A DNA stretch of 64,000 bases, taken from Cyanobacteria bacterium FACHB-DQ100. GTDB taxonomy: Bacteria > Cyanobacteriota > Cyanobacteriia > Leptolyngbyales > Leptolyngbyaceae. Below, in pieces: positions 4,458 to 25,368 of this stretch. The stretch lies in the NCBI GenBank assembly GCA_014695195.1, contig JACJNW010000023.1:186001-250000 (forward strand), written 5' to 3'. Every line of letters begins with the position of its first letter. The first letter of the stretch is position 1. The translations under genes were made by a program, and so were the position numbers. A model generated the notes under the pieces. The model made no database searches. It worked only from the letters and a program-made list of their open reading frames with translations, and was not told the origin of the DNA.

Positions 4458-5552
4458 TTAATCCTTTACTTCTCCTGTTAACAGCGCCACCACGACTAAT
4501 TCTTCAGCCTGGAGCGCGTGGCAGTCTTCGATGACGATCGTGCTGTGTTTTTCAACTAAATCATGCAGCGATTCATCTAAATACGCCTCTAATACACCCG
4601 GATGAATATAATATTTCCGGCAAGTTGCAGGGCGATTTCCCAAATAAGAAGACACAGATTTAACCGCTTGTGTAATATTCTTTTTTGCGGCTGTTTGTGA
4701 GGTAAATTTGCCAATTTCAGCTAAATGAGTAGCGGCTAAAACTGTTCCTGCCCAAGTGCGAAAATCTTTTGCTGTAAAATCTTGACCTGTGATTTCTCTC
4801 AGATAATCATTCACATCACTCGATTTAATATCTTGCGGTTGTTTATTCTCATCTAAATATTGAAAAAGCTCCTGACCGGGGAGATCTTGACAACGTTTGA
4901 CAATCTTTGCAAGTTGTTTGTCGTTGATGTCGATCGCATGATCAACTCCGCTTTTTCCCCGGAATGTAAAGCGAACTTTTGAGCCAATCACATTCACATG
5001 ATCATCGTGCAATGTTGTTAAACCGTAAGACTCATTTGTTTTCGCGTATTCTTCATTGCCGACTCGAATTCGCGTTAGTTCCATGAGCTTGAGAACAGTC
5101 GCTAATACTTTTTGTTTCGGCAATCCGGGAAGCGCTAAATCCTGCTCTAATCGCCGCCGAATCTCTGGTAAGGCTTGGCTAAAAGCAATCATGCGGGAGA
5201 ATTTTGTCTGGTCGCGAATCGATCGCCACAGTGGATGATACCGATACTGCTTTCGTCCTTTTGCGTCGCGTCCAGTTGCCTGCAAATGCCCATTTTCAAG
5301 CGGACAAATCCACACGTCCCGATAAGCAGGCGGAATTGCGAGAGAATTAATGCGCTGAATGGTTTTCTCGTCTTTGATACGATCGCCATTTGGATCAAAA
5401 TAAATGAAGCTTTTTCCCGATCGCTTGCGTCGAATTCCTGGCATCTCGTCGCTGATGTAGTGTAATCCAACCGCTTCGGCAGACTCGATCGGATCAGTGG
5501 GAATTTCGGTAGGAAGCTCGGCGACGGCTAAATTCATGATTTCAAACATCAT
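4458..5552 (-). CDS. DNA topoisomerase IB (eukaryote/poxvirus type)
   Basis: This enzyme relaxes supercoiled DNA through a 3'-phosphotyrosyl intermediate without ATP. The N-terminal part shows the typical block MPGIRRKRSGKSF...YFDPNG and AIPPAYRDVWICP. The catalytic half shows LTRIRVGNEEYAK, KDFRTWAGTVLAA and the active-site region NRPATCRKYYIHPG, whose tyrosine attacks DNA. The start is uncertain: ATGs lie at 5552, 5549 and 5537, none with a good ribosome binding site, and the frame runs up to a TTG at 5576. The chosen start gives 364 residues. Type IB enzymes are patchily distributed in bacteria, which suggests past transfer. The gene is divergent from the NTF2-like gene across a short region with an inverted repeat. 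Confidence 0.93.
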   Translation of the reverse strand: MMFEIMNLAVAELPTEIPTDPIESAEAVGLHYISDEMPGIRRKRSGKSFIYFDPNGDRIKDEKTIQRINSLAIPPAYRDVWICPLENGHLQATGRDAKGRKQYRYHPLWRSIRDQTKFSRMIAFSQALPEIRRRLEQDLALPGLPKQKVLATVLKLMELTRIRVGNEEYAKTNESYGLTTLHDDHVNVIGSKVRFTFRGKSGVDHAIDINDKQLAKIVKRCQDLPGQELFQYLDENKQPQDIKSSDVNDYLREITGQDFTAKDFRTWAGTVLAATHLAEIGKFTSQTAAKKNITQAVKSVSSYLGNRPATCRKYYIHPGVLEAYLDESLHDLVEKHSTIVIEDCHALQAEELVVVALLTGEVKD

Positions 5553-5596
5553 TTCGGGATAGCTTGACCGTATCAAACTGAACGATGTTTGAAATC
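5538..5596. promoter_or_regulatory. 13-bp perfect inverted repeat in the divergent topIB/HpxZ-like promoter region
   Basis: GATTTCAAACATC at 5538-5550 and GATGTTTGAAATC at 5584-5596 are exact reverse complements separated by 33 bases. The pair sits between the divergent starts, overlapping the first codons of topoisomerase IB if ATG 5552 is used and abutting the ATG if 5537 is used. This placement is typical of an operator or a leader hairpin. No regulator gene lies next to it. Confidence 0.45.
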
Positions 5597-15134: not shown

Positions 15135-16646
15135 ATGTTCGTTTCCGTTTGTCGGCTTCGGAGCCGAATCGCTTTTGCGATCGTTACAACCAGTTTAGTT
15201 GCCCAAGGTCTATGTCAGAGCGTTGCTAAGGCGGAGTTTCTGCCTTATTGCCAGCAAACTACAGACGCAATCCGGCAGAAAGATGGGGCTCGTCGGGCAG
15301 CGCTGAATGGTACCCCTGAAGCCCAGCAATCTTATCAAACTTTAATTCGGCAACAGGCGGAGCAACTGCGGCAGTGTCGCAATCAGAACTGGCTGAAAAC
15401 TCAGGGGATTTGGCTGCGACTGTATGCCTGTGATGCTCGACCGGGCGCGATCGACGAGGTATTAGATCGAATTGTCGATCGCGGCTACAACGAGATTTAT
15501 GTGGAAACATTCTTCAACGGACAAGTGTTGCTGCCTGCTGCGAACAATCCAACCGCCTGGCAATCGATGGTGCAATCTCCGAATAATGCTGATTTGTTAG
15601 CTCAGGTGATTCAGAAAGGGCGCGATCGTGGCTTAAAAGTGTATGCCTGGATGTTTAGCATGAACTTTGGCTACACCTATGCGATCAAGCCTGAAAAGCA
15701 AGTGACCTTGTTACGTAATGGTCGTGGGCAGACTAGCTTTCGTGCCAATACGGTTGCGGGGCTGAGTACCGATTTAGGCACATTGAACCCGGATGAAGCC
15801 TTTATTGACCCGTATAGTCTGCTGGCAAAACAGGATTATTACCGCATGATGCAAGAAGTCCTCAAGCGTAAGCCTGATGGTGTGCTGTTTGATTACATTC
15901 GCTATCCGCGCAGTCGAGGTAAACAATCAATTACAACCAGCGTGCAGGATTTGTGGATTTTTGGAGAGGCATCGAGGCAAGCGCTGATCGATCGGGGTTT
16001 GAATAACAAAGGGCGGGAATTGATCAAACGCTATATCAATCGTGGCTTTATCAGTGCTAGCGATGTTGCGACAGTCGATAAGCTGTTTCCGCGTGAGAAA
16101 GTTCCGATGTGGCAGGGACGCGTTCCCAGCACGATCGAAGCCCGTGGCTCTTCGGCTCAGCGAGCCGGAGTTTTGCAAGCAGAGTTGTGGCGGTTGAGTG
16201 TGGCTCATGCTATGCAGGGCGTGGTTGATTTTCTCAATCTGGCAGTCTATCCGGTGCGACAAGCAGGATTGCCAGCAGGAGCGGTGTTTTTTCCAGAGGG
16301 CAATCAAACGATCGGGCAGGGGTATGATTCTCGCTTGCAGCCGTGGGATCGTTTTCCGCATAATATCGCATGGCATCCGATGTCTTATGCGACTTGTGGG
16401 AATGCAAAGTGCGTTGTGCAGCAGGTTCAGCGCGTGTTAGCGCAGGCAGCACCGGGAACCGAGGTAAAACCTGTTTTAGCTGGAGTTTGGCAGGAATCGA
16501 TTAGCAATCGTCCGCCGTTAGAGGTGCAAATGGAGGCATTGCGATCGCTGTCACCGCGTATTTCGGCGATTAGTCATTTTGCTTATTCTTGGCAGGAGCC
16601 GCAATCGGATCAAGACCGTAAATATTGCGCTGCCCGGCGGCTTTAA
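15135..16646 (+). CDS. Exported glycoside-hydrolase-10-like (GHL10/DUF187-type) protein
   Basis: The 503-residue protein has a signal peptide (FAIVTTSLVAQGLCQSVAKA) and a mature part starting near EFLPYCQQ. From about residue 95 it resembles family-10-like TIM-barrel hydrolases: GIWLRLYACDARPG, a loop YNEIYVETFFNGQVLLPA, VYAWMFSMNFGY, PDGVLFDYIRYPRS and AWHPMSYATC. The FDYIRYP block is characteristic of the GHL10/YngK group, which act on surface polysaccharides; substrate is unknown. It is followed by a convergent NRPS gene only 11 bases away, where a short tandem repeat supplies both stop codons. Confidence 0.75.
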   Translation: MFVSVCRLRSRIAFAIVTTSLVAQGLCQSVAKAEFLPYCQQTTDAIRQKDGARRAALNGTPEAQQSYQTLIRQQAEQLRQCRNQNWLKTQGIWLRLYACDARPGAIDEVLDRIVDRGYNEIYVETFFNGQVLLPAANNPTAWQSMVQSPNNADLLAQVIQKGRDRGLKVYAWMFSMNFGYTYAIKPEKQVTLLRNGRGQTSFRANTVAGLSTDLGTLNPDEAFIDPYSLLAKQDYYRMMQEVLKRKPDGVLFDYIRYPRSRGKQSITTSVQDLWIFGEASRQALIDRGLNNKGRELIKRYINRGFISASDVATVDKLFPREKVPMWQGRVPSTIEARGSSAQRAGVLQAELWRLSVAHAMQGVVDFLNLAVYPVRQAGLPAGAVFFPEGNQTIGQGYDSRLQPWDRFPHNIAWHPMSYATCGNAKCVVQQVQRVLAQAAPGTEVKPVLAGVWQESISNRPPLEVQMEALRSLSPRISAISHFAYSWQEPQSDQDRKYCAARRL

Positions 16647-16667
16647 TCTAAAGGGCTTTAATCTAAA
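16639..16667. repeat. 14-bp direct repeat carrying the stop codons of two convergent genes
   Basis: GGCTTTAATCTAAA occurs at 16639-16652 and again at 16654-16667 (period 15). The first copy contains the TAA of the rightward glycosidase-like gene (16644-16646). The second contains the reverse-strand TAA of the leftward NRPS gene (16658-16660). Confidence 0.8.
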
Positions 16668-19600
16668 AGATAGTGATTCAACTGTTGCGCTAAGGTTTGC
16701 ACATGGGGCTGTTTGAGTAAAGAGAGGTGATTACCTGGGACTTGATGTACCCGAAGGTGATCGACCAAACTATCCCAACCTAAAGTTGGATTGCGATCGA
16801 TTGAATTGCGATCGGACTGTTCAGCCGCTTTAAACAGAACCATACGATGTGGATAAGCTTGAGGTACATATTGATAGGTCGCTTGAGCATTGGCATAGAC
16901 AATCCGCAGCAGTGAGGGAATGGCAGATTCTTCTAGAAATCGGAGCCGAGTTTCTTCGGGAATTAAGCGCAAAATCGTAGACCATTGCCAGCGCGAAAAC
17001 CAAGAATTTCGAGCTTGTAGTCGATCGAGCGCAAGGGTACTATAGTCGAGCAAAAATGGCAGGGTTGACCAAAGTGCAGTGCCTAAAAGAAACTTCAGGC
17101 TTTGATAGAAGGAAGGTTTATAGCAAGGAGCGGGGGTGTCTAACATTGCTAAGAGTTTCACTTCATATCCTGCACGGGTGAGTTGTTGCGCCATTTCAAA
17201 GGCGACAATGCCACCAAAAGACCAGCCTCCTAGAAGATAAGCTCCATCAGGTTGAACCGTTTGGATTGCTTTGATGTAGTAAGCTGCGATCGCTTCAATT
17301 CGATTGAGCGGTGGTGTTTTTCCATCCAGCCCCAACGGTTGTAGTCCATAAAAGCTGCGATCGCAATCTAGAGCATTTGCAAGTTCTAGATAGGGCAGCA
17401 CAACGCCAAACATCGGATGAATGCAAAAGAAAGGTTGTTTGCTGGTTCCGAGTGTGAGCGGGACTAAGGGCGACCAGGATACAGAGGGTTTGTCGGGAAT
17501 GTTCGAGGCTGGAGTCGATCGTTGACGGCGGAAGGCTGTTCGATCGAGTCGAACTAAGGGCGGAATCTTTGAGGCGGGCTGCTGTAAAGTATCGAGAACG
17601 GGGGCGAGTTGAGCGATCGTGGGTGCTTCAAACACGCTCTTTAAGGGTAGCTCTAGCCCAAACCCATCACGAACACGAGAAGTCATTTGGGTTGCGAGCA
17701 AGGAATGCCCGCCTAACTCAAAGAAGTTATCGTGAATTGTGATCTGCTTCAGTCGTAGAAGATTTTGCCAAATCTCTAATAGGGTTGTTTCTGTGGCAGT
17801 TGTAGGATGAGTTGAACTTTTAGCGATCGCGCTGTGGGTGATGTCTTCGCTGAAGGCAGGTAGAGCTTGACGATCGACTTTACCATTTACTGTGATTGGA
17901 AGTGCTTCTAGCGGTAAAAAGATAGCCGGAATCATATATTCCGGCAGGGTTTCTTTGAGAAATTGGCGCAATTGAGGAACCAATTGCCGCGCAAATTCAG
18001 CTTGAAGCGGATTATTTGTGTATTGTTGCCATGAGTTGATTCTTCCCGAACGAGAGCTAGTTTTAGCATCAATATCTTGTCGGATCAGAGATACATCATA
18101 ATCACCTGTCTCTGTTTCAGTTGTCCAGGTAAGCTCGACGGTGTAGGGCAGTAATGCTTCTAAGCTGTACCAATCCTGAGGATCGATCGCAAATTCAGGC
18201 GATTCCTGGAACTGTTCTCGCATTTGCCCGACTGTTTTTGGTGTTTTTCCACGACTTAACCAAGTTGCAGTTCTAACAGCAGCATTCACTCGACTGTTTT
18301 TAACATTCTGGATGATGAGGATTTCTGGCTGCGTCTGAATTAAAACTTCCTGAATCTTCTCGACATTCACTGAGTTGATTTTCCAGTTTAGGGATTGAAT
18401 TGCAGGAGATTTCAGTTGAGCCTCATCTATCAAGCTGTCTTTAATGTGCAGTAAAACGTTATAGCGAAACTGAGTCATTTCATTGTGGTGCTGCCCGCGT
18501 GATAATCGAATCTGCACAGAGCGAATCTGAGGAAACCTATCTTGTAATGCGTAAAAGAACATTGGATCGATCGCAAGTTCTGGTTCTTCAAAGCGCGATC
18601 GATTCATCAACTTTTGCAGGGTTGATCGCTCCATTCCTGCGTCTGCTTTACAAAATTGCATCCAAGCATGAAAAGCAGTGAGCAATGATAGATTTCGCAC
18701 ATCACCAATCCATAAAGTTCCTCCTGGTGCTACAGCTTGAATCGCTCCTTCTAGCACCTGCATTAAGTAATCCACACTGGGGAAGTATTGCACGATCGAA
18801 TTCAAAATCACCCCATCAAATGATTCAACCTCAATCCCTGTAAAATCAGTCGCAATTCGGTGCAATAGTTCCACTTGAGGAAGTGTTGCTAGTTGGTTCT
18901 GAACTCCTTCTAAAGCAATTTTTGAAAAATCTGTGCCTACATATTTCTGACAATGCGGCGCAAGCTGAAACAGTAACAATCCAGTACCACAGCCGATTTC
19001 TAGCACTCGTTTTGGTTTAAGCGCGAGAATTTGCTGGACTCGATCGCTGATCCACTCTTGCATTTGCTCTGGGGAAATTGGCTCTCCGGTGTAGCTGCTG
19101 TTCCAGCCTGTGATGTTAAAACGAGAGGCTGGAGATTGATAGGTTTGGTTGTAGAGCGTTTGCCATTGTTCGACCTGTTGCTCGACTTGTTGAGTTTGAA
19201 GCGATGTTTGCTGTAACTGTTGAAGATCTAAACTAAAATAAGCAACTAACCGCATCTCATTCGACGTTGCTCCAGAGGCGAGAACGGCTGCATCTTGGAT
19301 AGCAGGATGACGCTGTAGCGTGGCTTCAATTTCACCGAGTTCAACCCGGAATCCTCGAATTTTGATTTGATCATCGACTCGACCAAGAAACTCAATCGAA
19401 CCATCCGGGCGGTAACAAGCACGATCGCCTGTCTTATAGAGTCTCAGGTCTTTTTTATGTATGAATCGATCCGTAGTTAATTCCGAGCGATTGAGATAAC
19501 CCCGAGAAAGCCCTACACCGCCGATATACAATTCGCCTGGAATGCCAACAGGAACCGGATTGAGGTGGGTATCTAAGAGATAAACTTGCGTGTTAACAAT

Positions 19601-22129
19601 CGGACGACCGATCGACAGAGGAGGATCGCCGGGGTGAAGTTCGGCAACAGTTGACCAGATTGTGGTTTCGGTGGGGCCATACGCATTAAAGAACAAGCGA
19701 TCGACTGCCCAACGATCGATAACCTGCTGAGAGCAAGCTTCTCCCCCTGTAATCAGCACCCGAAGCGCAGGCAAATCCGCCGACGGCAACACAGCTAAGA
19801 CGGCTGGCGTTAATAAAGCATGAGTAATCGCATTGTCTTGTAGATAGCGTATCAAAGCGATTCCCGGTAGCTGAGCAGACTTAGACGGGATGTAGAGTGT
19901 GCTGCCAGAACCCAGTGCTAAAGCAATCTCAAAAATGGAGGCATCAAAGCTCAAGGAACTAAATTGCAAAACTCGACTGTTGCGAGATAGATGAAACACT
20001 CGTTGCTGTGCTTCAACCACATTGCACAATCCTCGATGCGATAAAAGCACTCCCTTAGGTGTGCCTGTAGAGCCAGAGGTATAAATCACATAAGCAAGCT
20101 GATCGGGCGTTGGGGGAGAAGCGATCGCGCACTCTTCATCAAGTGGAAGCGGTTGATCTAAACACACAATCTTTGCGGATGATTCAGGGAGAACATCAAT
20201 CAGCCAAGACTGTGTAAGCAAAACTGAAACCTGAGTATCCATCAGCATGAAGCGGAGTCGATCGTGGGGATAGTTTGGATCGAGCGGCACATAGGCTCCT
20301 CCCGCTTTGAGAATTCCGAGAATCCCAATCAGCAGATTGGCAGAACGATCGACACACAATCCCACTAAACAATCGGCTTGCACTCCCAGGTGTCTGAGAG
20401 TTTGTGCGAGGCGATCGGCTCGCTGGTTGAGCTGTTGATAAGTGAGCGTTTCTTGCTCTGAAACAAGTGCGATTGCGTTGGGTTCGCGCTGTACTTGTGC
20501 TTCAAAGATTTGATGAAAACATTGATCGTTCTGAAGTTGGCTCTCAGTCTGGTTCCACTGAGCTAGAAGCTGGTGTTCTACAGGAGTGAGTAAAGGGAGA
20601 TCAGATAGGCGATCGTCAGGATTCGCCACAACCCTTTCAAGCAAGGTTTGAAAATGACCAACTAAACGACTGATGCGATCGCGATCAAACAAATCTGTGC
20701 TGTAGGAAATAAATCCGCTTAAGCCTGCTTGCGATCGCCATAAGCTGCGTAATCCGTGTGCAGGTTCCCACAAGTGAACCTCTAAATCAAATCGCGTACT
20801 AGCTGACTCTAAGGGTGCAGGTTCTAAGGTCAATCCAGGTAATTCTAAAGATTGCATCGGAGCATTCTGGAGTGCAAAAGCAACCTGAAACAAAGGATTA
20901 CGGCTCAGATCCCGCTCTGGATCTAACTCCTCGACTAACTTCTCAAACGGTAAGTCCTGATGTTCATAAGCTTCTAATGCGACCTTGCGAACCTGCTCCA
21001 ATAGTTCACGAAATGTTGGATTGCCAGACAGATCCGATCGCATCACTAAACTATTCACAAAAAAGCCAATTAATCCTTCTACTTCGCTGCGATGACGATT
21101 TGCAATTGGAACACCGATCGCAATGTCCTCTTGCGCTGTATACCGATGTAGCAATGTCTGAAATGCTGCAAGCAGAATCATAAACAAAGTGGCTCCAGTC
21201 TGCTGACTCAGAGCTTCTAATTGCTCGGTCAGCTCTAGAGAAAATTGCAGAGGATAAGTTGCGCCACGATAGGTTTGAACTGTAGGACGAGGGCGATCGC
21301 TCGGTAAATTCAGTACGGGTAAATCTTGTAGCTGCTTCAGCCAGTATGATCGTTGTTTTTCTAAAATTTCTCCCTGCAACCAGTTGCGCTGCCAGCAAGC
21401 AAAATCGGCGTACTGCATCGGTAGGGGTGGTAATTCTGGCGATCGTTCCTCAACAAATGCGGTGTAACAGTGCGCTAATTCTTGAACCAGCACACCCAGC
21501 GACCAGCCATCTGCAACAATATGATGCAGGGTGAGCAACAGCATTGCTTCTGTTGAGCTAAACTCCAGCAGTGTGATTCGTAAAAGTGAATCCGTTGCGA
21601 GATTAAACGATCGCTGTGCCTCAGTCGTCGCTAATTGTTGGCTTATCTGTTCAGGCGCTGTGACGTTGGATAGCTGCACCACTGATAAATCAACTTTGAT
21701 ATCCGGTTCGATCACTTGAACGGGTTGACCGTCAACCACAGCAAATCGAGTACGAAGGGCAGCATGGCGGCGCACAATCTCATTAAACGATCGCTCCAAA
21801 GCCGCTCGATTCACAGTTCCTTTCAGGCGAATGGCAGCAGGCACATTGTAGAACGGATTATTAGGCGCAAGTTGGTACAAAAACCACAATCGTTCCTGAG
21901 CAAACGATAAAGGAAATACTTGAGTTTTGAGTTGAGCGGATTGAGTAGATTGCAAGTACGTAATGATTTCAGCTTTACGCCCAGCTAATTCCTGGCGTAA
22001 CTCTTTTGTTAAAGTTCCTTCTGGAGCATTACAGCGCAATCGAACTTCAGCATGATCATGCCTAATCGATAGTTGAACATCTAAACTCTGAAGATAAGAC
22101 ACCAATTCAGCGATCGTTCGGTTCGTCAT
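16658..22129 (-). CDS. NRPS, terminal module: docking-C-A-nMT-PCP-TE
   Basis: The 1823-residue synthetase is in order: residues 1-60 a TubC_N-type docking domain (EGTLTKELRQELAGRKAEI); about 70-510 a condensation domain with HHIVADG (202-208); about 540-965 an adenylation domain with YTSGSTGTPKG, FDASIFE and NAYGPTETT; about 985-1340 an inserted N-methyltransferase (VLEIGCGTG 1043-1050) between motifs A8 and A9; motif A10 with NGK near 1417; a carrier domain with GGHS (Ser1476); and from 1565 a type I thioesterase with GWSFGG (Ser1637) and a late His1801. My hand-read specificity positions are D-A-F-L-I-G-A-I-W-K, hydrophobic but not a code I can assign. It begins inside the ATGA shared with the upstream NRPS gene, so the two are translationally coupled. 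Confidence 0.95.
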   Translation of the reverse strand: MTNRTIAELVSYLQSLDVQLSIRHDHAEVRLRCNAPEGTLTKELRQELAGRKAEIITYLQSTQSAQLKTQVFPLSFAQERLWFLYQLAPNNPFYNVPAAIRLKGTVNRAALERSFNEIVRRHAALRTRFAVVDGQPVQVIEPDIKVDLSVVQLSNVTAPEQISQQLATTEAQRSFNLATDSLLRITLLEFSSTEAMLLLTLHHIVADGWSLGVLVQELAHCYTAFVEERSPELPPLPMQYADFACWQRNWLQGEILEKQRSYWLKQLQDLPVLNLPSDRPRPTVQTYRGATYPLQFSLELTEQLEALSQQTGATLFMILLAAFQTLLHRYTAQEDIAIGVPIANRHRSEVEGLIGFFVNSLVMRSDLSGNPTFRELLEQVRKVALEAYEHQDLPFEKLVEELDPERDLSRNPLFQVAFALQNAPMQSLELPGLTLEPAPLESASTRFDLEVHLWEPAHGLRSLWRSQAGLSGFISYSTDLFDRDRISRLVGHFQTLLERVVANPDDRLSDLPLLTPVEHQLLAQWNQTESQLQNDQCFHQIFEAQVQREPNAIALVSEQETLTYQQLNQRADRLAQTLRHLGVQADCLVGLCVDRSANLLIGILGILKAGGAYVPLDPNYPHDRLRFMLMDTQVSVLLTQSWLIDVLPESSAKIVCLDQPLPLDEECAIASPPTPDQLAYVIYTSGSTGTPKGVLLSHRGLCNVVEAQQRVFHLSRNSRVLQFSSLSFDASIFEIALALGSGSTLYIPSKSAQLPGIALIRYLQDNAITHALLTPAVLAVLPSADLPALRVLITGGEACSQQVIDRWAVDRLFFNAYGPTETTIWSTVAELHPGDPPLSIGRPIVNTQVYLLDTHLNPVPVGIPGELYIGGVGLSRGYLNRSELTTDRFIHKKDLRLYKTGDRACYRPDGSIEFLGRVDDQIKIRGFRVELGEIEATLQRHPAIQDAAVLASGATSNEMRLVAYFSLDLQQLQQTSLQTQQVEQQVEQWQTLYNQTYQSPASRFNITGWNSSYTGEPISPEQMQEWISDRVQQILALKPKRVLEIGCGTGLLLFQLAPHCQKYVGTDFSKIALEGVQNQLATLPQVELLHRIATDFTGIEVESFDGVILNSIVQYFPSVDYLMQVLEGAIQAVAPGGTLWIGDVRNLSLLTAFHAWMQFCKADAGMERSTLQKLMNRSRFEEPELAIDPMFFYALQDRFPQIRSVQIRLSRGQHHNEMTQFRYNVLLHIKDSLIDEAQLKSPAIQSLNWKINSVNVEKIQEVLIQTQPEILIIQNVKNSRVNAAVRTATWLSRGKTPKTVGQMREQFQESPEFAIDPQDWYSLEALLPYTVELTWTTETETGDYDVSLIRQDIDAKTSSRSGRINSWQQYTNNPLQAEFARQLVPQLRQFLKETLPEYMIPAIFLPLEALPITVNGKVDRQALPAFSEDITHSAIAKSSTHPTTATETTLLEIWQNLLRLKQITIHDNFFELGGHSLLATQMTSRVRDGFGLELPLKSVFEAPTIAQLAPVLDTLQQPASKIPPLVRLDRTAFRRQRSTPASNIPDKPSVSWSPLVPLTLGTSKQPFFCIHPMFGVVLPYLELANALDCDRSFYGLQPLGLDGKTPPLNRIEAIAAYYIKAIQTVQPDGAYLLGGWSFGGIVAFEMAQQLTRAGYEVKLLAMLDTPAPCYKPSFYQSLKFLLGTALWSTLPFLLDYSTLALDRLQARNSWFSRWQWSTILRLIPEETRLRFLEESAIPSLLRIVYANAQATYQYVPQAYPHRMVLFKAAEQSDRNSIDRNPTLGWDSLVDHLRVHQVPGNHLSLLKQPHVQTLAQQLNHYLLD

Positions 22130-25100
22130 AGTTCAATTTCCTCACGATGGCGCGAATTGGTTTGTCCTAAAGCTTCGATTCTTTGGGCTAATTGCGCGAT
22201 CGTTGGCGCTTCAAATACCGATCGCAAGGGGAGTTCAACCTGAAATCGATCGCGAATGCGTGAAACAAGCTGAGTCGCTAACAATGAGTGCCCCCCTAAC
22301 TCAAAAAAACTATCTTGAGTTCCGATCTGTTCGCGCCCAAGCAGTTGAATCCAGAGTTCAATCAGTGATGCTTCTAATGAGGTTGCGGGAAGCACCAGAC
22401 TATTTTCTTTTATGCTGCTGAAGTTCGGAAGAGGTAATGCTCTGGGATTAACTTTGCCATTCACAGTCAAAGGCAACGCATCTAACATTACAAACCCAGC
22501 AGGCAACATATAAGCAGGTACTTTAGCTTTGAGAAATGCTCTTAGCTCTTTCTCCGTTACCTCTTCAGAGCTTTGAGGAACAACGTAAGCAATTAACTGG
22601 CGATCGTGGTCTATCTCCCGCACCATGACTATGCTGGTCTGTACCTTCGGATGCTGTATGAGAATTGCCTCGATCTCACCTAACTCAACTCGAAATCCTC
22701 GGATTTTAACTTGGTCATCTATTCGTCCCAAAAACTCAAGATTGCCATCAGGACGATACAGCGCTCGATCGCCCGTCCGATAAAGCCTCAAGTCTCCAAC
22801 CTGAACAAATCTTTCTGCGGTCAATTCCTGGCGGTTGAGATATCCCTGCGCTAAACCATCACCCCCTAAGTAAATCTCACCTCTCACCCCTACGGGAACT
22901 GGATTTAGCTTTGCATCTAATAGATAGACCTGAGTATTGGCGATCGCTTGACCGATTGGAATGGTAGCTGCATTCTCTGACACGCTTTGCACTTCATACC
23001 AGGTTGAAAACGTGGTGTTTTCTGTCGGGCCGTAAACATGCATGAGATGTTGAGGTTTTCCTTGATGCAGCAGCGATCGTACGCACTCCACATTCGCCAT
23101 CTCGCCCCCAAATAATAGGAATTTGAGCGAACGGAAAGCATCGGGAATCTGACGAATCGTTTGATTGAACAATGCCGTTGTCAGAAACAGAATGCTAATT
23201 TGATGCTGCTGCAATTGAGCCGCAAAATCAGTCGGCAAAAGGGTACTCTCTCGCTCTAGCCCAACTAATCGCGCTCCATTCAGTAATGCTCCCCAAACCT
23301 CAAAAGTTGCTGCATCAAAGGACAAACTTGCTACCTGTGCAATTTGATCGTTCGGTTCTATCTCAATGTAATTCGTATCACACACCAATCGATTAACGCT
23401 GCGATGGGACACCATTACTCCCTTGGGTGTTCCAGTTGAACCAGAAGTATAAATCACATAAGCAAGCTCATTTCCTGTGCAAACATTGGATAAATTTTCA
23501 TCCGATTCTTCAGCGATCGCGCTCCACTCCTGCTCTAAACACATCACTCTAGTTCGATCAAATCGCTCTGCCCAACTTGCTTGGGTTAAAATGATCGCAA
23601 TTCCCGCATCTTCGATCATGAACTGCAATCGCTCTGATGGATAGCTTGGATCAAGCGGCACATAAGCACCCCCCGCTTTTAGCACAGCCAACATTGCTGC
23701 GATCGCTTCAATCCCCCGCTCTAAACAGATTCCAACAGGCATTCCCGCCCGCACACCGTAGCGCTGCAAGTACCGCGCTAGCTGGTTACTTCCTTGATTT
23801 AAAGCTGAATAGGTGAATGATTGATCACCAAATTGAACCGCGATCGCAGTTGGTCTTTGTTTAACCTGTGCTTCAAACAATTGATGGATTCCGACACTTG
23901 CAGGATAATGCGATCGATGACTGCTCCAATGCTTGAGTAATGCGTCTTGCTCTTGAACACTTAACAAGGATAGTTCAGACAAACAAGCCTCTGGATTCGC
24001 AACAATGCTTTCTAATAGCGTTTGAAAATGCTGGCGCAGAGCTGCGATCGTGCTGCCATCAAATAAATCAGTGTTGTAAACAAGGATGCCGCGTAATCCA
24101 TCTGTCTGTTGCCAGTCTTTACCCCATAGATTCCGAAAGTTATCGCCGCACTTCCAAAGATAAACTTCCAGATTAAAGCGCGAAGTCTTTGTTTCTAAAT
24201 CTACTGGACTTAACACTAAACCCGGTAACACTAATTGTTCCATCGGCGTATTTTGTAGCGCAAATACAACCTGAAACAGTGGATTCTGTCCCAAGTTCCG
24301 AACCGGCTGGAGTTCTTCAACTAGCTTTTCAAACGGCAAATCTTGATGAGCATACGCAGCTAATGTCACCTTCCGCACCCGATCTAAGAGTTCTCGGAAC
24401 GTTGGATCGCCTGTTAAATCCGCTCTTAGCACCAAGCTATTCACAAAAAAGCCAATCAAGCCCTCTAACTCGCTTTGGTGACGATTCGCAACCGGAGAAC
24501 CGATCGCAAGATCTGTCTGTCCCGTGTAGTGATAAATCAAAGTTTGGAACGCTGCCAATAAGGTCATAAATAGCGTGACACCCGCTTCCTGACTTAATTC
24601 CTCCAGCGCGTCTAATAGTTGCTGTGGTAGCTCGATTAATTGACTCGCCCCCCGGTAACGTGGCTCATCCTCGCGAGAAATAGAACTTGGCAAATTGAGT
24701 GCAGGTAAATCCTTTAGCTGCTGCTTCCAATAGTGCAACTGGGTTGTCAGTACCTCGCCTTGCAAATACTGTCGTTGCCAGTGAGCAAAATCTGCATATT
24801 GCACAGGCAGTTCTGGCAGGACCGCAGGCTTACCGTGAACGATCGCCGCATAAAACTCCCCCAACTCTCGAATTAAAACGCCGCTCGACCATTCATCGAA
24901 AATAATGTGATGCAGCAAAATTAGAAACAAATGCTCTTGATCGTGTAACTGCCAAAGACGCGATCGCAATAGTGACCCCGCATTCAAATCAAACGGTCGC
25001 TCAATCTCCTGCCAAATCTCCTCTACTGCAATGTTCTCGCGAACACTCGCAGGCATTGTTCGTAAATCAGTAGATTTCAGTGGGATTTGCGCGGCTTGAG

Positions 25101-25368
25101 CTACGACCTGAAGCAACTGCCCATCAATCTGCTCGAATGTTGTTCTGAGAATTTCATGCCGCCGAACGATCGCATCGATGCTTTGCTGAAGCTGCGCTCG
25201 CCTTAAATCACCCGTCAGCCGAAAGACCAGGGGGATACTATAGAGAGAGGCTCCCGGCAAAAGTTGTTCAATAAACCATAAGCGCTGTTGAGCAAATGAG
25301 GCTGGAAAAATAAAACTCTCTTCAACATCTTTTTGGATCGGCTGATCTGAAATCATTCCCACCTGCAT
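22126..25368 (-). CDS. NRPS, first module: C-A-PCP
   Basis: The 1080-residue synthetase has a condensation domain (about 20-470) with motif HHIIFDE at 153-159 (Glu where Gly is usual), an adenylation domain (about 495-945) with YTSGSTGTPKG at 640-650 and FDAATFEVW, and a carrier domain with GGHS (Ser1028). Specificity positions read by eye give D-A-F-F-L-G-V-T-F-K, which resembles codes reported for isoleucine or other branched aliphatic residues. There is no upstream NRPS/PKS gene, so the first condensation domain may be a starter domain that acylates the first amino acid. The C-terminal tail RHREEIEL is short and acidic, fitting a linear docking motif for the TubC-type domain of the next protein. 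Start ATG is 25368 or 25356. Confidence 0.95.
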   Translation of the reverse strand: MQVGMISDQPIQKDVEESFIFPASFAQQRLWFIEQLLPGASLYSIPLVFRLTGDLRRAQLQQSIDAIVRRHEILRTTFEQIDGQLLQVVAQAAQIPLKSTDLRTMPASVRENIAVEEIWQEIERPFDLNAGSLLRSRLWQLHDQEHLFLILLHHIIFDEWSSGVLIRELGEFYAAIVHGKPAVLPELPVQYADFAHWQRQYLQGEVLTTQLHYWKQQLKDLPALNLPSSISREDEPRYRGASQLIELPQQLLDALEELSQEAGVTLFMTLLAAFQTLIYHYTGQTDLAIGSPVANRHQSELEGLIGFFVNSLVLRADLTGDPTFRELLDRVRKVTLAAYAHQDLPFEKLVEELQPVRNLGQNPLFQVVFALQNTPMEQLVLPGLVLSPVDLETKTSRFNLEVYLWKCGDNFRNLWGKDWQQTDGLRGILVYNTDLFDGSTIAALRQHFQTLLESIVANPEACLSELSLLSVQEQDALLKHWSSHRSHYPASVGIHQLFEAQVKQRPTAIAVQFGDQSFTYSALNQGSNQLARYLQRYGVRAGMPVGICLERGIEAIAAMLAVLKAGGAYVPLDPSYPSERLQFMIEDAGIAIILTQASWAERFDRTRVMCLEQEWSAIAEESDENLSNVCTGNELAYVIYTSGSTGTPKGVMVSHRSVNRLVCDTNYIEIEPNDQIAQVASLSFDAATFEVWGALLNGARLVGLERESTLLPTDFAAQLQQHQISILFLTTALFNQTIRQIPDAFRSLKFLLFGGEMANVECVRSLLHQGKPQHLMHVYGPTENTTFSTWYEVQSVSENAATIPIGQAIANTQVYLLDAKLNPVPVGVRGEIYLGGDGLAQGYLNRQELTAERFVQVGDLRLYRTGDRALYRPDGNLEFLGRIDDQVKIRGFRVELGEIEAILIQHPKVQTSIVMVREIDHDRQLIAYVVPQSSEEVTEKELRAFLKAKVPAYMLPAGFVMLDALPLTVNGKVNPRALPLPNFSSIKENSLVLPATSLEASLIELWIQLLGREQIGTQDSFFELGGHSLLATQLVSRIRDRFQVELPLRSVFEAPTIAQLAQRIEALGQTNSRHREEIEL

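Follow-up and report, generated by a model that had tools for sequence, protein, structure and literature searches.

A conserved two-module nonribosomal peptide synthetase of cyanobacteria with an LCL-type first condensation domain and a predicted Ile/Val-N-methyl product

What does a nonribosomal peptide synthetase (NRPS) of only two modules make, and what feeds its first condensation (C) domain when no carrier stands upstream? The question is raised by positions 16658-25368 of the window, by which we mean the whole stretch of DNA analysed here (64,000 nucleotides of contig JACJNW010000023.1 from Cyanobacteria bacterium FACHB-DQ100). Two open reading frames (ORFs) on the minus strand, 22126-25368 (P0002, 1080 aa) and 16658-22129 (P0001, 1823 aa), overlap there by 4 bp (ATGA). 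By Pfam, P0002 consists of Condensation, AMP-binding, AMP-binding_C and PP-binding, that is C, adenylation (A) and peptidyl carrier protein (PCP) domains, and P0001 of TubC_N, Condensation, AMP-binding, a methyltransferase (MT) between A and PCP, PP-binding and Thioesterase (TE). The core domains of both proteins have strong Pfam scores, far beyond chance; with C, A and PCP domains bearing their core motifs, and a release domain, the pair is a type I modular NRPS. The two coupled genes, C-A-PCP and docking-C-A-nMT-PCP-TE (nMT, N-methyltransferase), agree with an original prediction made from the letters alone, and its two-residue line with an N-methylated second residue and a first C domain (C1) lacking an upstream carrier is likewise supported.

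A two-module line for Ile/Val and an N-methylated residue, with release by the TE, widely conserved and related to a three-module line, is well supported. The fuller reading, to which we give a probability of roughly 0.55, is a self-contained bimodular NRPS that joins Ile/Val to an N-methyl residue, releases the product through its TE, has C1 perhaps fed in trans and has a hydrolase as likely partner. The parts of the pair, all on the minus strand, are these.

22126..25368: first subunit P0002, C-A-PCP, 1080 aa (ORF list, Pfam)
23935..25308: C1, a condensation domain of LCL type; HHIIFDEWSS spans 24883-24912 (Pfam, tree)
22837..23877: core of adenylation domain 1, pocket DAFFLGVTFK, Ile/Val (Pfam, code, published code match)
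22177..22365: peptidyl carrier 1 (Pfam)
22129..22149: acidic C terminus HREEIEL, which presumably pairs with TubC_N (sequence)
16658..22129: second subunit P0001, TubC_N-C-A-nMT-PCP-TE, 1823 aa (ORF list, Pfam)
21950..22114: TubC_N docking domain (Pfam)
20564..21922: second condensation domain, LCL type, HHIVADGWSL (Pfam, tree)
19493..20506: core of adenylation domain 2, pocket DAFLIGAIWK, Phe-type clade (Pfam, code, tree)
18641..19069: N-methyltransferase inserted in the A domain (Pfam, tree)
17603..17785: peptidyl carrier 2 (Pfam)
17513..17563: what looks like the leftover C-terminal tail of a subunit (PPLVRLDRTAFRRQRST), within the PCP-TE linker (sequence comparison)
16676..17434: type I thioesterase, GWSFG at 17213-17227 (Pfam, motif)

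P0001 was searched in 42 genomes of the window's family and then in 388 cyanobacterial genomes, a sample of the class. The regions read hold both genes in 28 genomes of the 388: the window's family accounts for nine of them and four other families for nineteen. Contig ends split the pair of G021 (G, C and L numbers are our handles for genomes, contigs and loci), so that P0001 features are counted over 27 instead of 28. One reading set of 20 regions gave 19 intact pairs and one, in G284, cut by a contig end. Outside the 28 are partial, cut or broken copies in G284, G013, G004, G262, G186 and G158, the last three known from search rows only, and some 20 further genomes with a weaker P0001 match whose regions were not read. 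The family is defined by the ATGA overlap, the pocket codes DAFFLGVTFK and DAFL[IV]GAIWK, and a TE behind the tail relic; the window pair has all of these and itself helped to define the family. The 4-bp overlap recurs in 28 of 28 pairs, and the TE motif GWS[FL]G in 27 of 27. No description of this family was found in the full-text literature searched, which held neither subscription papers nor supplements.

The surroundings of the pair change. Flanks are mostly common only within genera, and 5 of 44 neighbour groups cross genera at more than 40% identity; two of these are hydrolase pieces and one is an EcsC-domain protein. The acpP-fabF setting is, among the regions read, common to the window genome and G020 only, and because neighbours change between genera this neighbourhood is incidental. 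The same two pocket codes in 28 genomes of five families, amid changing surroundings, suggest a single small metabolite that is conserved and plays a general part in cyanobacteria. The EcsC-domain protein follows P0001 immediately downstream in G023 (L025:8894-10000) and in G198 (L110:5600-6697), which belong to different families; the two copies are 58% identical.

Specificity was predicted for both A domains: A1 has an Ile/Val code, and A2 falls in a Phe-type clade. The module 1 code DAFFLGVTFK is found in 28 of 28 genomes. Table 1 of PMC2533009 assigns it to Ile/Val in the cyanopeptolin synthetases of Planktothrix, and PMC13122637 assigns it in related pathways to L-Ile, or to D-allo-Ile with an epimerization (E) domain. 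The module 2 code DAFL[IV]GAIWK is kept in 27 of 27. A2 nests in the A-domain tree, with support 98, among domains coded DAWTIAAVCK (which we take to be a Phe-type code), DAFTIAAVWK and DAFIIGAIWK. DAWTIAGVCK is given for N-Me-Phe in PMC2533009. No paper text printing DAFLIGAIWK was found in the literature searched. Against the PDB, the A2 core matches LgrA best, then TycA, McyB, McyA and GrsA, with scores that do not discriminate the residue. The predicted product is Ile/Val-N-Me-X, in which X is perhaps aromatic.

Transfer between the subunits would rest on docking. The acidic C-terminal tail of P0002, REE[IVLF][ED][LVF], is kept in 28 of 28 genomes and presumably pairs with the TubC_N domain of P0001; we take the order of assembly as P0002 then P0001. 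PMC6195595 describes docking domains of this kind whose partners are short segments at a C terminus.

The pair has longer relatives. Three Nostoc plasmids (L072-L074), G162, G079, G065, G113, G027, G338 and others hold a trimodular system of three subunits, C-A-PCP, TubC_N-C-A-nMT-PCP and C-A-PCP-TE. Like the window pair, it has an N-terminal C domain, an Ile-type code in module 1 (in most), docking, an nMT in module 2 and a homologous TE; unlike the pair, it has an extra C-A-PCP module before the TE. Module 2 is coded DAWFLGNVVK, presumably for Leu, in Nostoc, G027, G060 and G338, and the first subunit of G027 has this code too. By tree, G162 is the nearest sister in C1 (support 98), A1 (97), C2 (94), A2 (99) and TE (90), the TE of P0001 grouping with that of G162's last subunit. 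The mean identity of the P0001 PCP is 0.56-0.65 to PCPs of middle subunits, 0.50-0.62 to those of first subunits and 0.40-0.46 to those of last subunits. The C-terminal tail of the middle subunit (in G162, PALVPLDRTSRRRLRSS) is matched in the PCP-TE linker of P0001 (PPLVRLDRTAFRRQRST), and the tail motif is seen in 27 of 27 such linkers by eye and in 26 by a strict pattern. In G162 the genes for the middle and last subunits lie about 11 bp apart. P0001 thus looks like the middle subunit of a trimodular system that kept its tail and gained the TE of the last subunit; deletion of the stop codon and of the last C-A-PCP in a trimodular ancestor would yield such a gene. We infer the direction from long to short because the relic of the tail persists in the linker. 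The deletions proposed in the evolution of nostopeptolide KVJ3 and minutumamide follow A-T-C borders according to PMC12184294, whereas the unit missing here would be C-A-T. If so, this is a natural example of product shortening in an NRPS, with a C-A-PCP lost, a TE captured and the old tail kept, which would be useful for engineering.

A tetramodular relative (L134, G060:C27, 3405-18744) has an extra A-MT-T gene upstream. This loader and the middle subunit of the same genome have nearly identical MTs, which suggests a recent duplication or conversion, and for that reason we do not favour the loader as the ancestral state.

What kind of domain is C1? A quick maximum-likelihood tree was made of 92 C domains, from which those below 380 aa, and so E domains and fragments, were excluded; the CDA-C1 reference in it is a partial sequence. 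C1 falls in a clade of support 100 with C domains of the bimodular system and its trimodular relatives, inside the LCL part of the tree. Apart from C1 in the tree stand RzmA-Cs and CDA-C1, which we take to be starter C domains, the FAAL-linked C domain of L071 and a post-E group with HH[IL]LLDGW. By the tree, then, C1 is of the ordinary LCL type; the starter type considered in the original prediction is not supported, a lipoinitiating NRPS having its first C domain in the starter clade. PDB matches of C1 run at 250-314 bits to Txo2, Txo1, 5u89 (presumably DhbF) and TycC and at 44.5-49.4 to RzmA-Cs and CDA-C1; these values agree with the tree and are not decisive alone, with PvdL (perhaps a FAAL-linked C domain) at 144 bits and several non-starter C domains below 80.

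The motif of C1 is HHI[IV]FDEWS[SG] in 28 of 28 genomes, with HHxxxD invariant. The residue after the motif Asp is Glu in all 28 C1 domains and Gly in all 27 C2 domains; an acidic residue stands there also in 11 of 12 tri- and tetramodular first subunits (three from Nostoc plasmids), G027 having Gly. We rejected HHxxxDE as the mark of a dead or starter domain: G028 and G013 have HHIICDEWS in C domains that are internal, and G060 has HHIVSDEWS although the A-MT-T gene precedes its first C domain. Mean pairwise identity over the 28 genomes is 75% for C1, 76% for A1 and 78% for C2. Six close pairs were compared, five of which fall within one genus; the ratio of nonsynonymous to synonymous substitution rates (dN/dS) is 0.066-0.112 for C1, 0.048-0.086 for C2 and 0.056-0.166 for A1. 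C1 is under purifying selection, slightly weaker than that on C2, and is not decaying. Given the invariant HHxxxD and low dN/dS, we do not favour a vestigial C1; a catalytic C1 is favoured because the domain is conserved, and it is probably an active, retained LCL domain without a dedicated donor.

The genome offers few donors. The original prediction named as absent nearby an acyl ligase, an MbtH protein, a phosphopantetheinyl transferase (PPTase) and an exporter; no acyl ligase, MbtH, PPTase or dedicated exporter is among the 28 window proteins scanned with Pfam (not every window ORF). Likewise, no further ORF with an A- or C-domain match was found in the flanks read for the 28 pairs, some of which stop at contig ends; the acyl ligase or FAAL that a lipoinitiating NRPS would have in its cluster is not seen there. 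The window genome (G000; 5.5 Mb, 99.9% complete) has no condensation domain outside P0001 and P0002, and in G091, a genome of another family whose completeness is put at 100%, the only C domains are the two of its NRPS pair. Of the two findings that together would have spoken against the original prediction, an LCL-type C1 and an NRPS gene elsewhere that feeds it, the first was made, while the genome holds no further condensation domain to feed C1. No MbtH was found in the window genome, and its one PPTase is HetI-like but under that model's cut-off. Four PP-binding domains are present: the two PCPs, the AcpP beside the NRPS and an acyl carrier protein (ACP) adjoining a FAAL-like gene. Of the eight AMP-binding matches, two are the A domains and one is an acetate-CoA ligase. 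The other five fall short of the cut-off of their best model: two resemble long-chain acyl ligases, one an acetoacetate/acetate-CoA ligase, one MenE and one a FAAL. With a catalytic C1 the donor would come in trans, AcpP or CoA being the general candidates, or would be PCP2 used iteratively.

We weakly favour a C1 that accepts a small acyl group in trans from AcpP or CoA. The original prediction argued for AcpP from its position; the setting changes between carriers, and position is therefore no evidence that AcpP supplies the starter, though N-acylation as such still stands. Nearly as probable is a free N terminus: C1 would condense nothing and be kept as a structural partner of A1, and the two modules would release their dipeptide either in linear form or closed to an N-methyl diketopiperazine. 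An N-methyl group promotes the cis form of the amide and with it closure to the diketopiperazine, the genome is without an NRPS-type donor module, and in all six pairs C1 is under slightly weaker constraint than C2. A precedent exists in fungi, where the N-terminal C1 of some NRPSs (enniatin, beauvericin, bassianolide) is non-catalytic according to a review (PMC11546977). A structural domain, however, need not keep the catalytic His, and HHxxxD is invariant in 28 of 28; moreover the dN/dS of C1 is within the range of A1.

Iteration, in which C1 would accept the dipeptidyl chain of PCP2 in trans and the TE would release a ring of four or six residues in which Ile and N-methyl residues alternate, is distinctly unlikely. 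C1 is LCL and in one clade with C2, as a peptidyl donor would predict, and the C-A-T-C-A-MT-T layout resembles that of enniatin-type NRPSs. Rhabdopeptide/xenortide (RXP)-type NRPSs, too, are thought to use modules iteratively (PMC6195595). But by Pfam there is no docking domain at the P0002 N terminus, the TE occupies the place of the former third module, and nothing indicates iteration. Very unlikely is lipidation of Ile through C1 by the FAAL-ACP pair of G000:C10, giving a lipodipeptide. The ACP adjoining the FAAL-like gene is the sole carrier besides the two PCPs and AcpP; yet C1 is no starter C domain, G018 and G023 (96% complete) both carry the NRPS pair and give no FAAL match at E 1e-60, and the FAAL-like gene sits in a cluster of its own (L079:2006-13469) with Coq4, two desaturases, the ACP, a CMAS-type methyltransferase, a flavin monooxygenase, a B12 radical SAM protein and more. 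Because of that company the FAAL-ACP cluster looks like a separate, lipid-type pathway.

The pair may have a partner encoded elsewhere. A 370-aa alpha/beta hydrolase was noticed in the flank comparison; by inspection of its sequence it has two hydrophobic stretches near the N terminus.

G000:C37:182652-183752 (locus L142:6626-7756): hydrolase, copy of the window genome, unlinked to the NRPS
L073:17476-18585 and L112:5369-6493: hydrolase relatives

It adjoins the NRPS in the bimodular G029, G037 and G174, lies 3 kb off in G103, and adjoins it again in the trimodular Nostoc L073, G338, G113 and G039; a fragment is near the broken NRPS of G013. The flanks of the window-genome copy are, among 20 loci compared, common to G020 only. 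GHS[MI]G, HGWGP and GHM are kept in 25 of 25 aligned copies. At E 1e-90 or better the hydrolase is present in 45 of 388 genomes: in 29 of 39 with an intact system (bimodular 19/28, trimodular 10/11) and in 16 of 349 others (Fisher p 6e-24). The eleven trimodular genomes include G092, known from search rows, G039 and G231, cut by contig or stretch, and G333, whose plasmid is that of L073 and whose hydrolase is 100% identical. Other yardsticks give 34/67 versus 11/321 (any P0001 match at 1e-300; p 6e-21) and 33/53 versus 12/335 (intact plus partial or unread P0001 matches); within family f1 the figures are 9/11 versus 3/31 (p 2e-5). Eight of the 16 others (G004, G133, G150, G158, G262, G276, G287, G374) hold P0002-type stretches of 52-74% identity, partial, fused or broken, in a one-sided search run in hydrolase-bearing genomes only; in G287 and G374 these stretches are within 10 kb of the hydrolase. 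Five more, of family f23, have a hydrolase just 48-50% identical, and G017, G032 and G294 are the remaining exceptions. By a post hoc count, 37 of 40 genomes with a hydrolase of at least 58% identity hold the NRPS intact, variant, partial or broken.

From these patterns the hydrolase is likely a partner that processes or detoxifies the NRPS product. That the association reflects shared ancestry only, without functional meaning, is rather unlikely: both are frequent in the same families, they are unlinked in the window genome, nine of the 28 bimodular genomes are without the hydrolase and the statistics ignore kinship, but the gene recurs beside the NRPS in the unrelated settings listed above, has the widest spread among the five neighbour groups that cross genera, keeps its association inside family f1 and comes with the NRPS in the post hoc count. 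The absence of tailoring genes in the original prediction thus stands for the immediate neighbourhood and may fail for the genome, where this predicted membrane-anchored hydrolase co-occurs; a statement that no tailoring genes are nearby can overlook partners encoded elsewhere.

Two kinds of variant were also seen. In G150 (C6:1368736-1373373) a P0002-type stretch (66%) is within a 2990-aa ORF, and the two subunits may be fused there. Broken NRPS copies are found at L039 (G013:C75), with a fragmentary hydrolase nearby, and at G374:C7:617214-629006, where the hydrolase is apparently intact.

Under the preferred reading of a trans-fed bimodular NRPS, P0002 would load Ile/Val and hand it to P0001 through the acidic tail and the TubC_N domain; P0001 would condense it with an N-methylated residue picked by a pocket of Phe-type derivation, and the TE would free the product. 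C1 would take a small acyl group supplied in trans by AcpP or CoA, and the predicted membrane-anchored serine hydrolase would process or detoxify what is released. Several points weigh against this account. No product is known for the pair. An LCL domain would be expected to use a PCP-bound donor, use of acyl-CoA or acyl-AcpP being unusual, and the dN/dS of C1 is above that of C2 in all six pairs. The A2 code has W at its ninth position, as do the small-residue codes DILQLGLIWK and DLYNLSLIWK, presumably for Gly and Cys; residue 2 may therefore be small. The TE motif does not separate hydrolysis from cyclisation. As to the fusion, the MT tree puts G162 among the bimodular proteins and not beside them, and first-subunit PCPs (0.50-0.62) are almost as near to the PCP of P0001 as middle ones. 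The hydrolase is absent from 9 of 28 bimodular genomes and is therefore not essential everywhere, and shared ancestry inflates its Fisher tests.

A bolder version, which we consider improbable, is a dispersed two-part system. In it the synthetase would make an N-acylated dipeptide as precursor, with the acyl group reaching in trans a C domain that once served elongation, and the hydrolase, co-inherited though unlinked in many genomes, would convert this precursor at the membrane. If true, the tailoring enzyme that seems to be missing would be the hydrolase, and the donor of an LCL domain would have switched from a PCP-bound aminoacyl group to an acyl carrier of primary metabolism. The system in any case frames a testable question, the role of an N-terminal LCL domain where the genome holds no NRPS donor.

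How does the pair compare with known NRPSs? Enniatin-type fungal NRPSs are also bimodular, with an N-terminal C domain and an N-methylating module 2; they start with a hydroxy acid and have a terminal C3 in place of a TE, whereas P0001 ends in one PCP and then a TE. Rhabdopeptide/xenortide NRPSs have N-methylating modules and no TE. Like the window NRPS they consist of short subunits with docking domains of TubC topology (PMC6195595). All three Kj12 subunits of the rhabdopeptide NRPS have N-terminal docking domains in that source, whereas in the window pair TubC_N is on P0001 only and the first subunit has none. The nostopeptolide synthetase NosA starts with a C domain, like P0002, but unlike C1 it is a starter C domain that joins a fatty acid to leucyl-PCP (PMC12184294). 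In the cyanopeptolin synthetases (oci, Planktothrix), Ile/Val modules with the code DAFFLGVTFK, that of module 1 here, adjoin an N-Me-Phe module (PMC2533009). Those synthetases differ in their seven modules, another first module and tailoring domains; the window line has two modules and its genome two C domains.

Two other genes of the window may be mentioned. Downstream of P0001, window positions 15135-16646 encode a 503-aa protein whose sole match is a sub-threshold GHL10 and which is, among the flanks read, common to G020 alone. Window positions 4458-5576 encode a type IB topoisomerase (Topoisom_I, Top1B_N_bact).

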